Shown here: in pieces, positions 37,795 to 51,600 of the stretch
Numbering within the stretch: position 1 is the first letter of the stretch
How the letters are laid out: each line of letters opens with the position of its first letter
Assembly: GCA_002189035.1 (NCBI GenBank)
Contig: NEEC01000007.1
Span: 2,170,001 to 2,234,000, forward strand
DNA length: 64,000 nt
Direction of reading: 5' to 3'
From: Utricularia gibba
Lineage: Eukaryota; Streptophyta; Magnoliopsida; Lamiales; Lentibulariaceae
The notes under the pieces: generated by a model
Told to the model about the DNA's origin: nothing
The model's input: the letters and a program-made list of their open reading frames with translations, nothing else
The model's database searches: none
Position numbers and translations under genes: made by a program

Positions 37795-39315
37795 CTAAGA
37801 CTTGTGTTCAGTGCCTTGACCTTGCGCTGCTCTGGCGGCAATCCTCACCGGAAAACCTCCTTTCATCTTTGCTGTCACCAGTGTCAGGTAGATCGGCTCC
37901 GCTCCGTCGTCAGCCACTGGCACAACTCTGAACTCCTGGAGCACAGCGGAGATCACACTCTTCATCTGCAAGAAAGCCATCTCCTTTCCTAAGCATACTC
38001 TTGGCCCTGCATTGAATACAGGGTTGTAGGGATCCCTGTTCACAAATGACACCTTTCCGTCCACCGTCTCCTCCAGCCACCGCTCTGGTTTGAATTCGCT
38101 CCAGTCCTCGCCCCAGACTGCCTCAATTCTCCCCATGGCGAATGCATTACATGACATGAGCCACCCCTTCTTCACAAACGTCCCATCGGGCAAAATGTCG
38201 TCCTGGAAGGCTTCTCTGGTGTCTAGAGGCACTGGGGGATAGAGCCTCATGCTCTCACAAATGGCCGCGTGAGTATATACAAGCTGCTTCACATCCTTGT
38301 ATCCGGCTGAAGTCGTTTCTGATCCATTTTGCTTGATTTCCCTCAAAATTTTGTCTTCAACATGTGGATTTTGTGATACAAGCCAAAAGAACCATGTCAG
38401 TGCAGCAGAAGTAGTGTCTTGCCCTGCTAAAATGAAGTTGAGGACGATATCCATCAATAGCTTTTCATCTGAAACTCCAGCGCTCAGAAATCTTGAGAGA
38501 AGATCCTCATTCGTTGCGGCTTTCTCCTCGACTTCATGCTTCTTCTGACGAACTATGTTCCTCGCCATATCCTTAACTGCACACAAGGCGATTCTGAGCT
38601 CCTTCTATGATCCCAGATCAAGGAATCTTTTGATTTTCCGGAGAATTGGGAGGATGTACTTGAATCTGTCGGTGATGTTGCGTACGGCAGTATAAAACGC
38701 GGTAGCAAACTTCTGTTCCGGCAGCGATGGCGATAGGTATTCAGGGTCATACCCAAAAGAAACCTGGCAGACATTATCGAATGCGAACCGCTGCATAACA
38801 TCTTGGAAGTCCAGCACAGATTCTTCGACAGCAGCCGTTCTCAAGATCGGGAGCAGGCGATCGGAGATCTCAACGTTGACGACGGACTCCAGGAACCAGC
38901 GCAACGATTTGATGTTGAACTCACGGCTAGCGAGCTGCCGTTGAAACTTCCACTTATCGCCGTCCAAGTTGAAGAGGCTGTCGCCGAGGAGGTCATAGAA
39001 GCCTGATCTCATAATCTCCCCTCTCCCGTAGTTTTCGAAATTCGTCTTGAGCATATGTTGGACGTTCGCGGGGTTCGCCGTGACGACGCCGGCCACCCGC
39101 ATCGGTAAGTGGAGAGTAAAGGTGAGCGACGGCGTCGATTTGACGAGCTCCGTTGTCCACTGCGGCAGTCGATCACCGTTCTTGGAGAACTCTACCACTG
39201 TAACGAGCGCAGAAGACGAAGAGATGGTCTTAGGCTTCGCCTTGGCTTTGAAAAAGACGAGGAGAATCAGAGCGGTGAGTATGGAAAGCAGGACACCGGC
39301 GTAGAATTCCGCCAT
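37795..39315 (-). pseudogene. CYP94-type cytochrome P450, copy 1, in-frame TAG
   Basis: A single-exon P450 of 506 sense codons apart from one stop: codon 237 is TAG (38605-38607). The reading frame before (236 residues) and after it is otherwise open to the end. An N-terminal membrane anchor (LLSILTALILLVFF) is present. The usual Pro-rich hinge after it is not seen. Downstream are the I-helix oxygen motif AGQDTTSA, the ExxR motif ESMR, FKPERW and the heme loop FNAGPRVCLG. The closest family is CYP94, whose members hydroxylate the omega end of fatty acids or of jasmonoyl-isoleucine in the ER. The N-terminal product alone would lack heme binding, so I call it a pseudogene or an allele with a nonsense mutation. 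Copy 3 has the same stop. One codon is missing before the heme loop (DPYNPVF against DPYTYPVF). Confidence 0.85.
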
Positions 39316-40635: not shown

Positions 40636-42152
40636 TCAACATGGTTGTCCAGGGGTGCAGCTCAGTGCTCCGGCGTACTTGGCCATCTCTACGGCAAACT
40701 CTCCAGATTTTGGGGGCACCATTTCACTTGCTCCCAGAGCGAACCTGTAATTCGCATCTCCGGATTCTACGAAAAATGCTCCGTTTTCAAAGACATCGTC
40801 CTGGGATTTCCACACCCATTTCTTCCACTCGCTCTCCGGCGTGTAATCCCTCCTCGTCACCTGCATGTGTATATTTGTTTGTAAAAAAAAGAAAAAAGGA
40901 GTGGGAAATGGGGAGTGTGATACCTCCTTGGTGTTGTTGTTGTCTGGGGCAACGTAGTGATTTCCCTGACTCAAAATGGTGGGGTGGCATGTTCCGGCGA
41001 TGGCGAACATCTCCCATTTCGTGTAGTCGTTGTTGACGACATGAGCGAATCCGAATCGCACTCGAGGCATTCTTTGAACCAGATGAGGTCCGAAATGGTT
41101 GAAGGCTAAGGTCACCTGCATGAGGCTGTCTTCTGGGCTCATTTCACTTGCCCCGAACAGCATCACCTACCACACCATTCAAAGCGACGAGATTAGATGA
41201 GATGGATGTCCACAAAATGGGGAAAAAAAATAACATTCCATTTACATGGTCGTGCTCCGTGTAGTAGCTGTTGGAGATTGTGATAGCCGTGGAGTGTGAC
41301 ACCGCATCAATCAACCCGTCGGAGCACCTCGCCATCGACAAGTGGTCGATCCAGATGTTGGAGGATCCGATTATGGAAATCCCATCGCCGTCGCTTTTGG
41401 TGCGGAACCCATGGTGGGAAGTGGAGTCCCTAATCATGCCTCCATTTCCAGGTTTGATGTCGTGGATGTGGATACCATGGATGATCACGTTGCTGATGAA
41501 CTGCAGCGTAAACCCTGCGCCATCCGCGATGTGGACATTCGCGCCACGGCCGTCAATCGTCTTGTTTCCCGCCATGATCAACTCCTGGGAGAGCCTGATG
41601 TTCATGTCCTTTTCGAAGATGATCCACAGCGGCTCCGATTGGATGACGGCATGCCTCAGAGTTCCCGGCTTGGGATCCACCAGGCTTCCATCGGACGAAT
41701 CATTCACCACGTAGACGCGGCCTCCCTTCCCACCAGTGGTGTTGTGGCCAAACCCAATAACGCAATCGGCGAGCCTCTCGCGATTCTCAGCCCAATCGCT
41801 CTTGCATCTCCAGCACTTATCAATGGGGTTTGTGGCATTGCATGCCTCTGAACTCAATGCTCTTCGTGAATGATCGAACTGTTTCGTCCTATTCATAACA
41901 AGAAAAGGATAACCATTAGATGGATTCGCTCATGTTTCATGGGGTTCGTAAATCTTACTTATGAACACGGTGGTTGACGAAGCTTGCAACATCGTAAGGG
42001 TTCATCTTGTAGCTCTGGACGGCCTCATTTCTTGATTCCTGTGCCCTCTGCTTCCAGAAAGCCGCATCTTGGACCTGGCTAGCTGCTCCCCTGGACACAA
42101 CATTACATACGAAAACAAAAAGGAAAAACGAAAGAACACTAATCCTACCCAT
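40636..42152 (-). CDS. PL: Pectate lyase (polysaccharide lyase family 1)
   Basis: Four exons, 42152-41959, 41888-41246, 41166-40924 and 40860-40636, give 434 residues. A signal peptide ([20 protein letters not shown]) sends it to the cell wall. An N-terminal domain (about residues 30-65) is followed by the beta-helix domain with [38 protein letters not shown], the WIDH motif and [25 protein letters not shown] holds the catalytic-type RxPxxR. The position usually filled by Cys (PRCRHG) is Val here (PRVRFG). Family knowledge: it cleaves de-esterified homogalacturonan by Ca2+-dependent beta-elimination. The third intron is 63 nt, in frame and free of stops. It is the only intact pectate lyase of three copies in the cluster. 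Confidence 0.93.
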
Positions 42153-42246
42153 TATTCAAGATGGTTTATTTTATTTATTTTTTGCTTGTAGCTGAATGAT
42201 AGCTTGATCGATGATGTCCAATTCCTGTGTTTAAATAGGTAAGAGT

Positions 42247-42377
42247 TTACTAAAAGTAGTGTTGATGTAGAGAAAACTTCGTGAGTGAACAACGGAGGAT
42301 GCTTCAAGTCATTACATCATGATTCAGCATGATGTAAACTCACGAAGTTTTCTCTACATCAACACTACTTTTAGTAA
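42247..42377. repeat. Perfect 40-bp inverted repeat at the head-to-head junction
   Basis: Arms 42247-42286 and 42338-42377 are exact reverse complements, separated by 51 bp. Inside the loop, TACATCATG (42313-42321) and CATGATGTA (42328-42336) form a second hairpin. The right arm ends exactly where similarity to the copy 3 P450 promoter starts (AGCTCCAAGG). Confidence 0.95.
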
Positions 42378-42395
42378 GCTCCAAGGTGTTCCAAA

Positions 42396-43917
42396 ATGGC
42401 GGAATTCTACGCCGGTGTCCTGCTCTCCATACTCACCTCTCTGATTCTCCTCGTCTTTTTCAAGGTCAAGGCGAAGCCTAAAACCATCTCATCGTCTTCT
42501 GCGCTTGTTACAGTGGTAGAGGTCTCCAGGAACGGTGATCGACTGCCGCAGTGGACAATGGAGCTCGTCAAATCGACACCGTCGCTCACCTTTACTCCCC
42601 ACTTACCGATGGGGATGGGGGCCGTCATCACGGCGAACCCCGCGAACGTCCAGCATATGGTCAAGACGAATTTCGACAGCTACGGGAAAGGGGAGATTAT
42701 CAGATCAAGCTTCTATGACCTCCTTGGCGATAGCCTCTTCAACATGGACGGCGATCAGTGGAAGTTCCAACGGCAGCTCGCTAGCCGTGAGTTCAACAGC
42801 AAATCATTGCGCTGGTTCCTTGAGTCCGTCATTAACGTCGAGATCTCCGATCGCCTGCTCCCTATCTTAAGAACGGCTGCTGTCGAAGAAACTGTGCTGG
42901 ACTTCGAAGATGTTATGCAGCGGTTCGCATTCGATAATGTCTGCCAGCTTTCTTTTGGTTATGACCCTGAATACCTTTCGCCATCGCTGCCGGAACAGAA
43001 GTTTGCTGCCGCATGTAACACTGCCGTAAGCATTGTCACCGACAGATTCAAGTACATGCTCCCAATTCTCTGGAAAATCAAAAGATTCCTTGATCTAGGA
43101 TCAGAGAAGGAGCTCAGAATCGCCTTGACGGAAGTTAAGGATATGGCGAGGAAGATAGTTCGTCAGAAGAAGCATGAAGTCGAGGAGAAAGCCGCAAAGA
43201 ATGAGGATCTTCTCTCAAGATTTCTGAGCGCTGGAGTTTCAGATGAAAAGCTATTGATGGATATCGTCATCAGCTTCATTATAGCAGGGCAAGACACCAC
43301 TTCTGCTGCATTGACATGGTTCTTTTGGCTTGTATCACAAAATCCCCATGTTGAAGACAAAATTTTGCGTGAAATCAACCAAAATGGATCAGAAACGACT
43401 TCAGCCGGATACAAGGATGTGAAGCCGCTTGTATATATTCATGCGGCCATTTGTGAGAGCATGAGGCTCTATCCCCAGCGCCTGTAGATACCAAAGAAGC
43501 CTTCCAGGACGACGTTTTGCCCGATGGGACGTTTGTGAAGAAGGGGTGGTTCCTGTCATATAATACATTCGCCATGGGAAGAATTGAGGCAGTCTGGGGC
43601 GACGACTGGAGCAAATTCAAGCCAGAGCGGTGGCTGGAGGAGAGGCGGACGGAAAGCTGTCATTTTTGAACAGGGATCCCTACGCTTACCCTGTCTTCAA
43701 TGCAGGGCCAAGAACATGCCTAGGAAAGGAGATGTCTTTCTTGCAGATGAAGAGTGTGATCTCCGCTGTGCTCCAGGAGTTCAGAGTTGTGCCAGTGGCT
43801 GACGACGGAACGGAGCCGATCTACCTGACACTGGTGACAGCAAAGATGAAAGGAGGTTTTCCGGTGAGAATTGTCGCCAGAGCAGTCGAAGATCAATGCA
43901 CTGAACACAAGTCTTAG
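42396..43917 (+). pseudogene. CYP94-type cytochrome P450, copy 2, frameshifted
   Basis: Homologous to copy 1 on the opposite strand. Codon 237, TAG in the other two copies, is GAG here (43104-43106), so the first 363 codons are open. Then CTCTATCCCC has one C fewer than copy 3 (run at 43473-43476), which leads to a stop at 43485-43487. A second one-base loss lies near 43643-43650 (GGAGGAGAGGCGG against GGAGGAGACGGTGG). After it the frame of the heme loop (FNAGPRTCLG) is open to a stop at 43917. The I-helix (AGQDTTSA) and ESMR motifs are intact. The upstream region is not that of copies 1 and 3: it is an inverted piece of the pectate lyase promoter. Either a pseudogene or a gene with two sequence errors. 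Confidence 0.85.
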
Positions 43918-44965: not shown

Positions 44966-45755
44966 GAAATGGAGGCATGATTAGGGACTCCACTTAAATG
45001 GAATGTTTGTTATTTGTTTTCCCATTTTGTTGGCATCCATCTAATCTCTTGGCTTTGAATGGTGTGGTAGGTGATGTTGTTCGGGGCAAATGAAATGAGC
45101 TTAGAAGACAGCCTCACGCAAGTGACCTTAACCTTCAACCATTTCGAACCCTATCTAGTTCAAAGAATGCATCGAGCACAATTTGGATTCGCTCATATCG
45201 TCAACAACTTTTAGAATACATAATCTCACATCGAAAAATAAAAGTAGAATAGTTAAGTATATAAAAAATTATAGATCATTAATAATTGATTGAACCTAAT
45301 CTTTTCTATTGTAATTTACGTTTCTTGTGTACTTGGACTTTATGTGCACGTTCGCCCGATCCATCGAATCCTGAATTTCAACAACAATGACCACACAAAA
45401 TGGGAGATGTTTGCCATCGCAGGAACATGCCACTCCACTATTTTGAGTCACGGAAATCACTACGTTGCCCCAGACAACAACAACACCAAGGAGGTATCAT
45501 AGTCTCCATTTCCCACTTCTTTTCTTTTTTTTAATGAACAAATATACATATACACACATGGAGGCGACGAGGAGGGATTACACGCCGGAGTGCCAATGTA
45601 AGAAATGGGTGTGGAAATCCCAGAATGATGTCTTCGAAAACGGAGCATTTTTTGTAGAATCTGGAGATACGAATTATAGGTTCTCTCTAGGAGCAAGTGA
45701 AATGGTGCCTTCAAAATCTGAGGAGTTTTCAGTGGAGATGGCCAGGTACAAAAAA
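44966..45755 (+). pseudogene. Pectate lyase pseudogene fragment 1
   Basis: It starts inside the equivalent of exon 2 (sequence matching GGMIRDST), then skips to the intron and exon 3, where VMLFGANEMS and a changed RMHRAQFG (the RxPxxR catalytic motif is lost) can be read. A 169-bp insertion at 45209-45377 splits the exon. Beyond it [17 protein letters not shown], the exon 4 equivalent ([19 protein letters not shown]) and the end up to VEMAR are recognisable. The true C-terminus is missing. It is clearly non-functional. Confidence 0.88.
45209..45377. mobile_element. 169-bp insertion flanked by an 8-bp direct repeat
   Basis: TCAACAAC occurs at 45201-45208 and 45378-45385, on both sides of DNA absent from the intact pectate lyase. 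An 8-bp duplication fits hAT-type insertion, but no clear terminal inverted repeats are seen. The start (AATCTCACATCGAAAAA...GTATATAAA) recalls TRIM/short LTR sequences. The class is open. Confidence 0.5.
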
Positions 45756-47045
45756 ATTATAAAAAAGATCTAACACCAATTATTGGAGATGAAATTCTAA
45801 AACATAATCAACTTTGTATTTTAGTGTTAAATTAAATTTTCACATCATCATTTTGTGTTTATTTTTTTAATATAAATTTACATAAATATAGTATTGTATT
45901 TATTTCTTTTGTATATTATATCAGAATCAACATGTTCAGCGTAATAGTATACATGTGATTTTGAGATTTTAATAGATATGTTTTCGTGACTTTGAGATTT
46001 TAATTCAAATAATATTGCTCATGAAACTATTTTGCATTTAATTGGTTATATTTTAACTTATTGGTTAATATAAATATTATAATATAATTGTATTGTAATA
46101 TATTATATCTAAATTTTTTAATATCAAGTATGCTTAAATGTATTTTTTTTTCAAGAAGGGCATATTTTTGTGAATATATAACCAAAAAATAAATAAAAAA
46201 TGATAATGTAAAAATTTAGTTTAACTTTAAAGTATTAAGTTGATCATGTTTTGTAATTCTATCTCCAATACTTGATGAGAGAAGTAATTTAACTGGCCAG
46301 GTATGCGTGTTGAATAAAAATAGATACATGTATTGCCTAATTAGAACCACCATTGGAGTATTGTAGAAGAGTGGCTAAATGCCTTCTTCAATATAGTTAG
46401 AATAAAATCAGAAAGGATTATCATATTTTTTGATTTTATTATTATTTTGTATTTTCAACTCAAAAAATGAGCTTTCATTTGTAGCAATAATTAATTTTTT
46501 TTTATTTTACATAATTGATTTTTTTAATTTATAAACTCTTTTGTTGGAAAGTCATTGTAGATTATCATTTCACTCTTTTTCTACACAACCAATCACCATC
46601 CGTGTGGCCCAGTCATGGATAGATGCCTCAAATATTAAACATAGATTTGAAAAAATAATTCCAATTAACATATTATACAAAATTACGTGAAAAAATAAAA
46701 ATATATAATATAATAAACATTTGAATTTTATATTTTTATAAACATTCTAAATATTTTTTAAGAAAATTTAAAATGTTTTTTTAAATTAAAAAACTTAATT
46801 TTTATTCTATTAAAAATAATTTTCTATTACATTCTTGTCCTATTCCCGTACGCTCGGAAGGCGACGGTTGAAAATTGATTTTTAATAAATAAGAATACAA
46901 ATTCAATCCAATTACGCATCATCTAAAGTTAATTACTGTAATTAGATTAATTTTTGAGATAATTAAATTATTGTGCGATAATCGGTCTTCTTCCAGATAA
47001 CATCCACGCTATCTGTGAACGAGGGGAGCTCCAAGGTATTCCAAA
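45756..47045. other. AT-rich spacer and promoter of P450 copy 3
   Basis: A/T-rich DNA without genes. The segment 46320-46560 is the inverted copy of the pectate lyase 3' flank at 40390-40620. The last 60 bases (GATAACATCCACGCTATCTG...) match the region upstream of P450 copy 1. Confidence 0.6.
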
Positions 47046-48569
47046 ATGGCGGAATTCTACGCCGGTGTCCTGCTCTGCGTACTCACCACTCTGATTCTCC
47101 TCGTCTTTTTCAAAGTCAAGGCCAAGCCGAAGACCATCTCTTCGTCTTCTGCACTCGTTACAGTGGTAGAGTTCTCCAAGAACGGTGATCGACTGCCGCA
47201 GTGGACAACGGAGCTCGTCAAATCGACGCCGTCGCTCACCTTTACTCTCCACTTACCGATGGGGATGGCGGACGTCGTCACGGCGAACCCCGCGAACGTC
47301 CAACATATGCTCAAGACGAATTTCGACAGCTACGGGAAAGGGGAGATTATGAGATCCGGCTTCTATGACCTCCTCGGCGATGGCATCTTCAACGTGGACG
47401 GCGATATTTGGAAGTTCCAACGGCAGCTCGCTAGCCATGAGTTCAACATAAAATCGTTGCGCTGGTTCCTGGAGTCCGTCGTCAACGTCGAGATCTCCGA
47501 TCGCCTGCTCCCGATCTTGAGAACGGCTGCTGTTGAGGAAACTGTGCTGGACTTCCAAGATGTTATGCAGCGGTTCGCATTCGATAATGTCTGCCAGGTT
47601 TCTTTTGGGTATGACCCTGAATACCTATCGCCATCGCTGCCGGAACAGAAGTTTGCTACCGCGTTTTATACTGCCGTACGCAACATCACCGACAGATTCA
47701 AGTACATCCTCCCAATTCTCTGGAAAATCAAAAGATTCCTTGATCTGGGATCATAGAAGGAGCTCAGAATCGCCTTGTGTGCAGTTAAGGATATGGCGAG
47801 GAACATAGTTCGTCAGAAGAAGCATGAAGTCGAGGAGAAAGCCGCAAAGAATGAGGATCTTCTCTCAAGATTTCTGAGCGCTGGAGTTTCAGATGAAAAG
47901 CTATTGATGGATATCGTCATCAGCTTCATTATAGCAGGGCAAGACACCACTTCTGCTGCATTGACATGGTTCTTTTGGCTTGTATCACAAAATCCACATG
48001 TTGAAGACAAAATTTTGAGGGAAATCAAGCAAAATGGATCAGAAACGACTTCAGCCGGATACAAGGATGTGAAGCAGCTTGTATATACTCACGCGGCCAT
48101 TTGTGAGAGCATGAGGCTCTATCCCCCAGTGCCTGTAGATAGCAGAGAAGCCTTCCAGGACGACGTTTTGCCCGATGGGACGTTTGTGAAGAAGGGGTGG
48201 TTCCTGTCATATAATACATTCGCCATGGGAAGAATTGAGGCAGTCTGGGGCGACGACTGGAGCAAATTCAAGCCAGAGCGGTGGCTGGAGGAGACGGTGG
48301 ACGGAAAGGTGTCATTTTTGAACAGGGATCCCTACACTTACCCTGTGTTCAATGCAGGGCCAAGAGCATGCCTAGGAAAGGAGATGTCTTTCTTGCAGAT
48401 GAAGAGTGTGATCTCCGCTGTGCTCCAGGAGTTCAGAGTTGTGCCAGTGGCTGACGACGGAACGGAGCCGATCTTCATTACACAGGTGACAGCAAAGATG
48501 AAAGGGGGTTTCCCGGTGAGGATTGTCGCCAGGGCAGTGCAAGATCAAGGCACTAAACACAAGTCTTAG
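47046..48569 (+). pseudogene. CYP94-type cytochrome P450, copy 3, in-frame TAG
   Basis: The full-length frame of 508 codons has a single TAG at codon 237 (47754-47756), the same codon and base change as in copy 1. All P450 motifs are present: AGQDTTSA, ESMR, FKPERW and FNAGPRACLG. The 5' part up to about codon 260 resembles copy 1 (for example FYTAVRNITDRFKYILPIL and ALCAVKDMARNIV). The rest resembles copy 2 (AAKNEDLL, MDIVISFIIAGQDTT), so it looks like a recombinant. The stop codon is directly followed by a short pectate lyase fragment instead of the P450 flank found after copies 1 and 2. Confidence 0.87.
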
Positions 48570-48575
48570 AAGCAC

Positions 48576-48666
48576 GGAGATGCGAATTACAGGTTCCCTC
48601 TGGTAGCAAGTGAAATGGTGCCTCCAGAATCCAAGGAGTTTGCGGTGGAGATGGCCAGGTACGCGA
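48576..48666 (+). pseudogene. Pectate lyase pseudogene fragment 2 (3' end)
   Basis: GDANYRFPLVASEMVPPESK and VEMARYA are readable, matching the last exon of the intact pectate lyase. It is joined to the P450 copy 3 tail at AGCACGG. The 3' flank (TAATTAGAACCACCATTGGA) follows at about 48700. Confidence 0.8.
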
Positions 48667-51600
48667 CAATCCTGTTAAATAAAAACAGATACATGTTCTA
48701 GGTAATTAGAACCACCATTGGAGTAGTGTAGAAGAGTGGCTGCTACATGCCCTTAAGTTTAACAGGAATAAAATGATTGTTTCTTAATACTTTCCTTTCT
48801 CTCTCATACTAAAAATGTCACACATATATGAAATTATACAAGATTTCTAAATCATCGATGTAAACTGAGACCCTAAGAGGTGATTTAGCACATTGACTAT
48901 TATGTGATACATGCATAAAAAAAGTGACTAATTAAATATTAGTTTTTTACATTATTATATGAAAAGGAAACCAAGGATCAAAATGATCCGATCATCACGC
49001 TGGTGACCTCATTCTTATAAAAAAATAACCATAAAACGAGAAATATGCTGTGTATTGATGGGACTTTATGATTAAAATTCTCTAAATAATTAAATTAATA
49101 AAACGAGCCTTTCTTCACATAATATTGATTATTTAAGAATAATAAAATAAAAAATAAAACAATTTAAGTGACGTCAAAATGAAATGAACTAAAAGGAAAG
49201 TCCAGAATCTAAATCTTACCAATTCAAGCTTTGCTCTAGAAAAATATCCTTTAAGTTCACATTTGGTTGAAATGAAAGTAATGAACGGATTTAGTTTTAT
49301 AAAAAATTAGGTATGAATTTAATTAAAAGAAAAAAAAATTGTACTCACCTCTCTTATATGAGGAAAATCTTATATTTTTGTTGTTTTAAGGAGTTTAATA
49401 AAAACTTTGTACCAAACAAATAAAATATATATTTCTATCCATTCAAATTTGTCAAAATCAATCAATCAAATATGGGCCCAAGCATGGTTTGGTTAGTAGG
49501 TTTAAGAACCAAATGTCAAAATTTCATTATATAGTGAGTATACATAGTCATTTCAATTTTTGTGATAACTATATTTTCTTAAATCTTTATATTAAAATTT
49601 GATTTGCGGTTAATTGTCATTTTCTCATTATTTCGTAGGTTGTTTATTATGTTTAAATGTAATTAGAATTATCTAATTAGGAATCTATAAATTATAATAT
49701 GAAATTTAGGTTTTTATCTAGTTTAGAATAATTATCTGTAATTTTGTATTTTATCTAATAATTTTGTTAGTTTTATTTAAGTTTATCTAGAGTCGCACAC
49801 GTGACATGAAGTGAGAAAACGAGGGTAGCAGATGACGACAAAATGGATATTCTTGAGTTGATATCTACTTGATTTCCAGAAGTCTGCAGACGTCTAATCA
49901 TGAGTGTTGACGTGCGGAACACGAGAGTCTCTAACAGACAACATCATTAGTGCACCAGTGTCAGAGCATACGTTTGCTTGCAAGTCACCCCAAGTCAGTA
50001 GAACCACAGGAACACGAAAACTCAGCCAAAATGGTTCAGCTTAGTTTAGTTCGGACAAGTTGAGAATCAATAGTTAGTTTAGTTTAGTTTTTTGTTTCTC
50101 TCTCTAGAGGATTTTCCTCTATCTTATCTCTAGAATCTTGTTTTTGTTTTCTTTAGTATGTATGACCGTTCGCAGATATGGGTTAGAATACTCTCATATC
50201 TATGTTTTGTTAGTTTATCTTTATCTCTTTTTTGAATCCGAACGGATTTTGTATGTTTTCGCACCACTATGTTACAGTCTTTCTGTAACAATCCTCAATT
50301 CAAAATCCATGGTTAGCTGATCACTACCCGTGAATTTTGGAGAGGAGCAAGGTGGAAAGCACCAATTCACACCCTTTTGATAAGAGGAAGACAACAGTTG
50401 GTCTGTGATCGTACCTCAGGATCAATGAACAGGTAGTGACCTCTTACCTGGACTCATTGGGCCATTGACAACACTCGGGCACACTCGCACAATTCGGTCG
50501 TGAGGGTATGTTGGCAGTACCTATTATTCTCACGTTCGTCCAAGGAGGAGCAACATCGGGCTATTCACATGCCTTCTTGTAAGAGAGTGTAAGGGAGAGT
50601 AGACAATTCTTTACTCCTATAATCGAGTACTCGAGAAGACCAGAGAAGAGTAAAGACACAACGAATATAGCTGGATAGGATTCCAAACCTAGGAACATTC
50701 ACTTTATTTAAGGTTCATCGCTTACGTTTATTTATGTTGTTTGTTTAAAACCCTCTTATCCCCTTATTCAAGCTTCATCATCTACGTTTCTCGCACCTTT
50801 TACTTCCAAAACCGTTTACAAATCATGACAATTATATTCGGTGTACCTCACCTTTCACTCGAAAACAACTCACTGTGTTCGGCACATGTACTACGCTTTT
50901 GTGTTTTACAAGTTTTAAAAATATTAAAATTTGTTATGGAAACGACACACATCATTTACATAGCTTGCATTATCACATATAAAATTATATTTTGACAAAA
51001 ATATTGTATTGATCACTTCCCGGATGATTTTCATGACATATCCTTAAGGCTTCAAAGAGATAAAAGGAAAGATTGCAAAAAAAAAAAAAAAGATAAAAAA
51101 TTCTTATAAATAAAGATACATATAATTCATAATTTTGGGGGTCTATTTGTTTTATAATTAAGCAAAAAAACTCCTTAAAATCGTGAAAAAAATAATGATC
51201 ATTATTATAAAGCAATACATAATATTGGCAGAAGAAATCACACAAATATAAAAATTAATTAGGGGCTTGGTCATGTTACAAGGAAACCCTAGAGTGGCCC
51301 TAGAATGCAATCATGCAGATATTTTAAAACCTTAGAGGGTTTGGCGTTTTCACCAAATGCTACGCGTGAACTTTTCCTTTGTTTAAGATGAGCCTAGGAC
51401 TATACTCTATAAATGTGTTTATTTTTTAGACATAAATATCTTCTTCACCTGGCCTGTGTTGGGAGTGTACACCAAATGCTACCTCTAAACTCTTAAACAA
51501 TACTTTTACACAAAAGAAATTCATTTTTATATGAATTAATCTTGTATATATTTAATATTGAATAAATTAAAATCAGAGTGTGTTTGGTTGTTGATATTAA

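Follow-up and report, generated by a model that had tools for sequence, protein, structure and literature searches.

A perfect inverted repeat at the head-to-head junction of pectate lyase and P450 genes in Utricularia gibba: a probable scar of fold-back or template-switch synthesis

Results

Gene content of the locus

The DNA analyzed here, referred to as the window, is a 64-kb stretch of the Utricularia gibba genome (positions 2170001-2234000 of contig NEEC01000007.1) within an assembly of 100.09 Mb in 516 contigs, and all coordinates below are counted from its first base. The following features are relevant to the analysis.

37795-39315, minus strand: P450 copy 1 (P450-1), open except for one in-frame TAG (alignment)
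40636-42152, minus strand: pectate lyase gene (PL), four exons, apparently intact, 434 aa (gene model; PDB match to Jun a 1, 1pxz, E 2.7e-96)
42247-42286, plus strand: left 40-bp arm, identical to the reverse complement of 42338-42377 and lying about 10 bp upstream of the PL TATA-like box
42287-42311, plus strand: 25-bp segment present on the left only and missing from the right copy, GAACAACGGAGGATGCTTCAAGTCA
42312-42321, plus strand: left half of the nested 10-bp stem, TTACATCATG
42322-42327, plus strand: 6-nt hairpin loop, ATTCAG (sequence and folding)
42328-42337, plus strand: right half of the nested 10-bp stem, continuous with the right arm, CATGATGTAA
42338-42377, plus strand: right 40-bp arm, an inverted copy of PL-upstream sequence joined to the P450-2 leader and absent from the P450-1 and P450-3 leaders (alignment)
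42377-42395, plus strand: leftover native leader of P450-2, 18-19 bp (P450-3 homology from 42377)
42396-43917, plus strand: P450 copy 2 (P450-2), with two 1-bp deletions near 43473 and 43643 (alignment; Pfam p450)
44970-45750, plus strand: PL remnant, 5'-truncated and internally deleted (sequence comparison)
47046-48569, plus strand: P450 copy 3 (P450-3), open apart from the same TAG as copy 1 (alignment)

These genes belong to a decayed array built from PL-P450-spacer units, with PL, P450-1, and a spacer (spacer A) on the minus strand and P450-2, spacer A, the truncated PL remnant, P450-3, and a PL tail on the plus strand. Jun a 1 is the best solved-structure relative of the intact PL, and an NCBIfam search with the pectate lyase returned no match. 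A TATTTAA box is found on the PL strand from 42237 to 42231. Elsewhere in the array, the 3' end of P450-3 is fused directly to the terminal exon and 3'-flanking sequence of a PL remnant (48569-48741), which marks a deletion junction within the old array. Between the PL remnant and P450-3 lies a 116-bp inverted repeat (45774-45889 and 46162-46277), the halves of which are about 80% alike and which is possibly a decayed MITE.

All three P450 copies are disrupted. P450-1 and P450-3 are otherwise open over 512 and 516 aa, respectively; P450-2 lacks their TAG but is frameshifted twice, and one of its two deletions falls in a run of C and could be a long-read consensus error. The common TAG is at codon 237, where P450-2 has GAG, and its presence in two copies may reflect duplication of a pseudogene after the stop arose or the spread of the stop by gene conversion. 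Pairwise dN/dS among the copies is about 0.4 to 0.5. Between P450-2 and P450-3, dS is 0.06 in the 3' half and 0.17 in the 5' half, and site patterns switch in blocks, which suggests that the copies have undergone gene conversion.

A perfect palindrome between two divergent genes

PL (ATG at 42152, minus strand) and P450-2 (ATG at 42396) stand head-to-head, and the 243-bp gap between their starts holds two exact 40-bp arms separated by 51 bp, both as originally predicted. The arms are complementary at 40/40 positions and reach 49 nt at 94% when mismatches are allowed. The inverted repeat nested between them had been given as 9 bp and in fact measures 10 bp. As the right half of this nested stem directly adjoins the right arm, the two form an uninterrupted 50-bp stretch (42328-42377), equal to the reverse complement of 42247-42286 plus 42312-42321 and lacking only the 25 bp at 42287-42311. 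The insert is thus exactly reverse-complementary to the adjoining DNA, over 40/40 and a contiguous 10/10 positions, as would be the case for a templated fold-back insertion. As a single strand, the region is predicted to fold into a long stem with a one-sided 25-nt bulge, with an energy of -86.6 kcal/mol as RNA (z -15.7) and -53.3 kcal/mol as DNA (z -15.3).

A 40-bp perfect inverted repeat is expected by chance about 3e-17 times in 64 kb. Nothing else within the window qualifies as a perfect inverted repeat when a length of at least 15 bp and a gap of at most 150 bp are required, and by the same definition none was found in 116 kb drawn from other loci of this genome. Across the 100-Mb assembly, a 24-mer from the arm matches only the two arms when up to 3 mismatches are allowed, a 21-mer from the outer end of the arm has 4 extra 3-mismatch matches (versus 12 for a reversed control), and a 29-mer taken from the loop region occurs only once. 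No second copy of the PL upstream region or promoter and no homeologous PL-P450 pair was found in the assembly; the nearest PL paralogue is 68% identical and the nearest P450 paralogues are 56-59% identical, all on different contigs.

Junction with the P450-2 leader

Similarity to P450-3 begins at 42377, in agreement with the prediction that the right arm stops where P450 homology starts. The junction reads ...TTAGTAA|GCTCC and has 1-2 bp (A or AA) in common with the leaders of P450-3 and P450-1 (GGGGAGCTCC and GGGAAGCTC, respectively), which falls inside the 0-5 bp of microhomology expected of fold-back insertions. The sequence that P450-1 and P450-3 have in common reaches just ~53 bp 5' of the ATG, and farther out the two are unrelated. 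It had been proposed that P450-2 lost its own promoter to the inverted piece. Loss of leader sequence is borne out, with 18 bp kept; a normal P450 promoter against which to judge the loss is not, as copies 1 and 3 differ beyond -53. No promoter common to the P450 copies can therefore be defined.

Age of the arms

The duplicated spacer and PL segments around the palindrome diverge by 5-13%, with differences at 149 of the 1442 sites compared (10.3%). The arms differ at 0/50 sites, which has a probability of 0.004 if they are as old as the duplications (p ~0.10), and the 95% upper bound on their divergence is 5.8%. Set against the roughly 10% of the surrounding duplications, the identity of the arms suggests that the palindrome is the younger feature. 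Alternatively, hairpin-templated correction could keep the arms alike.

Discussion

The palindrome is, in our view, probably the scar of a fold-back or short-range template switch at a rearrangement junction, judging from its sequence. This origin had been put forward in the original prediction and is backed here by the perfect arms, their single copy, the 1-2 bp of microhomology, and the abrupt end at the P450 homology. A 3' DNA end upstream of PL, either broken or stalled, would have folded back on itself and paired through short inverted sequences; in the present-day sequence, the candidates for this priming are the 10-bp nested stem, the innermost bases of the 40-bp arms, or both. A reverse copy of some 40 to 50 bases from upstream of PL would then have been synthesized and joined to the broken P450-2 leader by 1-2 bp of microhomology. 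The geometry, the uniqueness, the junction, and the perfect identity of the arms are direct observations; the polymerase steps and the DNA break are inferred from them, as is the use of the PL side as template, because the left arm lies at the PL core promoter and the right arm replaces the P450 leader. Three routes could account for the 25 bp missing from the right copy, a gap without clean microhomology: a native nested hairpin combined with one large-loop fold-back, two fold-backs in sequence, or a subsequent deletion. Template switching during replication would leave the same footprint (PMC8794818).

It is also conceivable that the PL promoter already carried the palindrome before the rearrangement, as an ancestral cis-regulatory or hairpin element beside which P450-2 landed. 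The left arm is directly upstream of the PL TATA-like box, and the nested stem could be native, given that 7 distinct 10-bp stem centers with loops of 3-10 occur in the 64 kb. We nevertheless consider this unlikely: an old element is hard to match with 0/50 arm differences when nearby duplicated DNA differs by about 10%, the end of the right arm coincides exactly with the P450 homology, and no other long perfect inverted repeats are present in the 180 kb examined. Insertion between PL and P450-2 of a fold-back or MITE-type transposable element with 40-bp terminal inverted repeats is a very unlikely origin, although the repeats are perfect and TA dinucleotides can frame the arms (TTTA|CTAAAAG ... 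CTTTTAG|TAAG) as in Tc1/mariner MITEs. Arms that are 100% identical would imply a young element with relatives, yet neither arm nor loop has a further copy in the genome, which makes a transposable element a poor explanation. Moreover, the only TA pair lies within the palindrome itself, and there is no empty site or target-site duplication because the left and right flanks come from different genes. Two further candidates were set aside. Inversion by staggered nicks leaves inverted duplicates at two distant breakpoints and is ruled out on geometry, with palindrome arms only 51 bp apart. A palindromic-read assembly artifact is not favored, as the arms give way to P450-2 sequence after only 40-50 bp and the larger inverted copies are 5-13% divergent.

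Whether the palindrome acts today is a separate matter, and a present function is not needed to explain it. The head-to-head genes, 243 bp apart, and the very stable predicted RNA fold could be read as an active bidirectional promoter, with the copy of PL-upstream sequence driving P450-2, or as a hairpin or small-RNA locus yielding siRNAs on the PL promoter; we regard such activity as highly improbable. The shared bidirectional promoter suggested from the gene arrangement is not upheld, as a working one is unlikely where P450-2 is frameshifted and the copied piece stops before the PL TATA-like box, leaving the P450-2 side without one. Two functional divergent genes would be expected at such a promoter, and P450-2 does not qualify unless both frameshifts are consensus errors. 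A hairpin RNA from the palindrome is possible only if the region is transcribed. Against a small-RNA role, near-matching targets elsewhere are not above chance, and because the arm is single-copy, a small RNA made from the stem would have no obvious targets in trans. No Rfam family reaches its gathering score; two matches to plastid 3'UTR hairpins fall far below theirs and reflect only the long stem. U. gibba has a truncated DCL3 and scarce 24-nt siRNAs (PMC8333044), and promoter methylation through 24-nt siRNAs is therefore less likely in this host. A newborn hairpin RNA locus, in which a perfect stem made in one step beside the PL core promoter gives rise to small RNAs acting on that promoter, seems highly improbable as well; if true, it would represent a nascent cis-acting hairpin gene whose arms have not yet diverged. 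The palindrome is real and clean as a sequence feature, and it looks like the outcome of an ordinary repair or replication error of a kind already described, which explains it well, and not like a new regulatory device.

When fold-back or template-switch synthesis is placed alongside described systems, one close parallel comes from yeast. Fold-back insertions at breaks in wild-type yeast involve an imperfect 10-bp inverted microhomology and a 41-nt loop; the copied stretch measures 10 to >150 bp, and microhomology at the second end is 0-5 bp with a median of 2 (PMC11724301). As in those fold-back insertions, a short inverted copy lies beside its template here, across a loop of 51 rather than 41 nt, and both the copied length and the microhomology at the second end are within the yeast ranges. 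Unlike the yeast insertions, the present case is an old plant germ-line event known from its product alone, and its stem has a 25-bp asymmetry.

Perfect hairpins also arise from single template-switch mutations (Monttinen and Loytynoja 2022, PMC8794818), and the palindrome is similar in that one event would yield a perfect reverse-complement stem beside its source. It differs from those cases in that the copied piece also spans a gene-order breakpoint. Fold-back inversions by two sequential hairpins, also described in yeast (PMC7467729), offer a likeness for the small-loop hairpin nested in a larger-loop stem, here a 10-bp stem with a 6-nt loop; those events produce large inverted duplications, whereas just 40-50 bp were copied here before the sequence changes partner.

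A literature search for a plant counterpart turned up templated insertions in Arabidopsis and no matching case. The palindrome may serve as a clean plant germ-line example of fold-back synthesis at a gene-order breakpoint, and its age can be placed relative to that of the duplications around it. It would illustrate how promoter-proximal DNA is copied in reverse and grafted onto a neighboring gene in a single event. Should related plants show the arrangement expected before that event, it would provide a natural plant case for a mechanism that, in the literature compared here, is documented mostly in yeast, bacteria, and primates.
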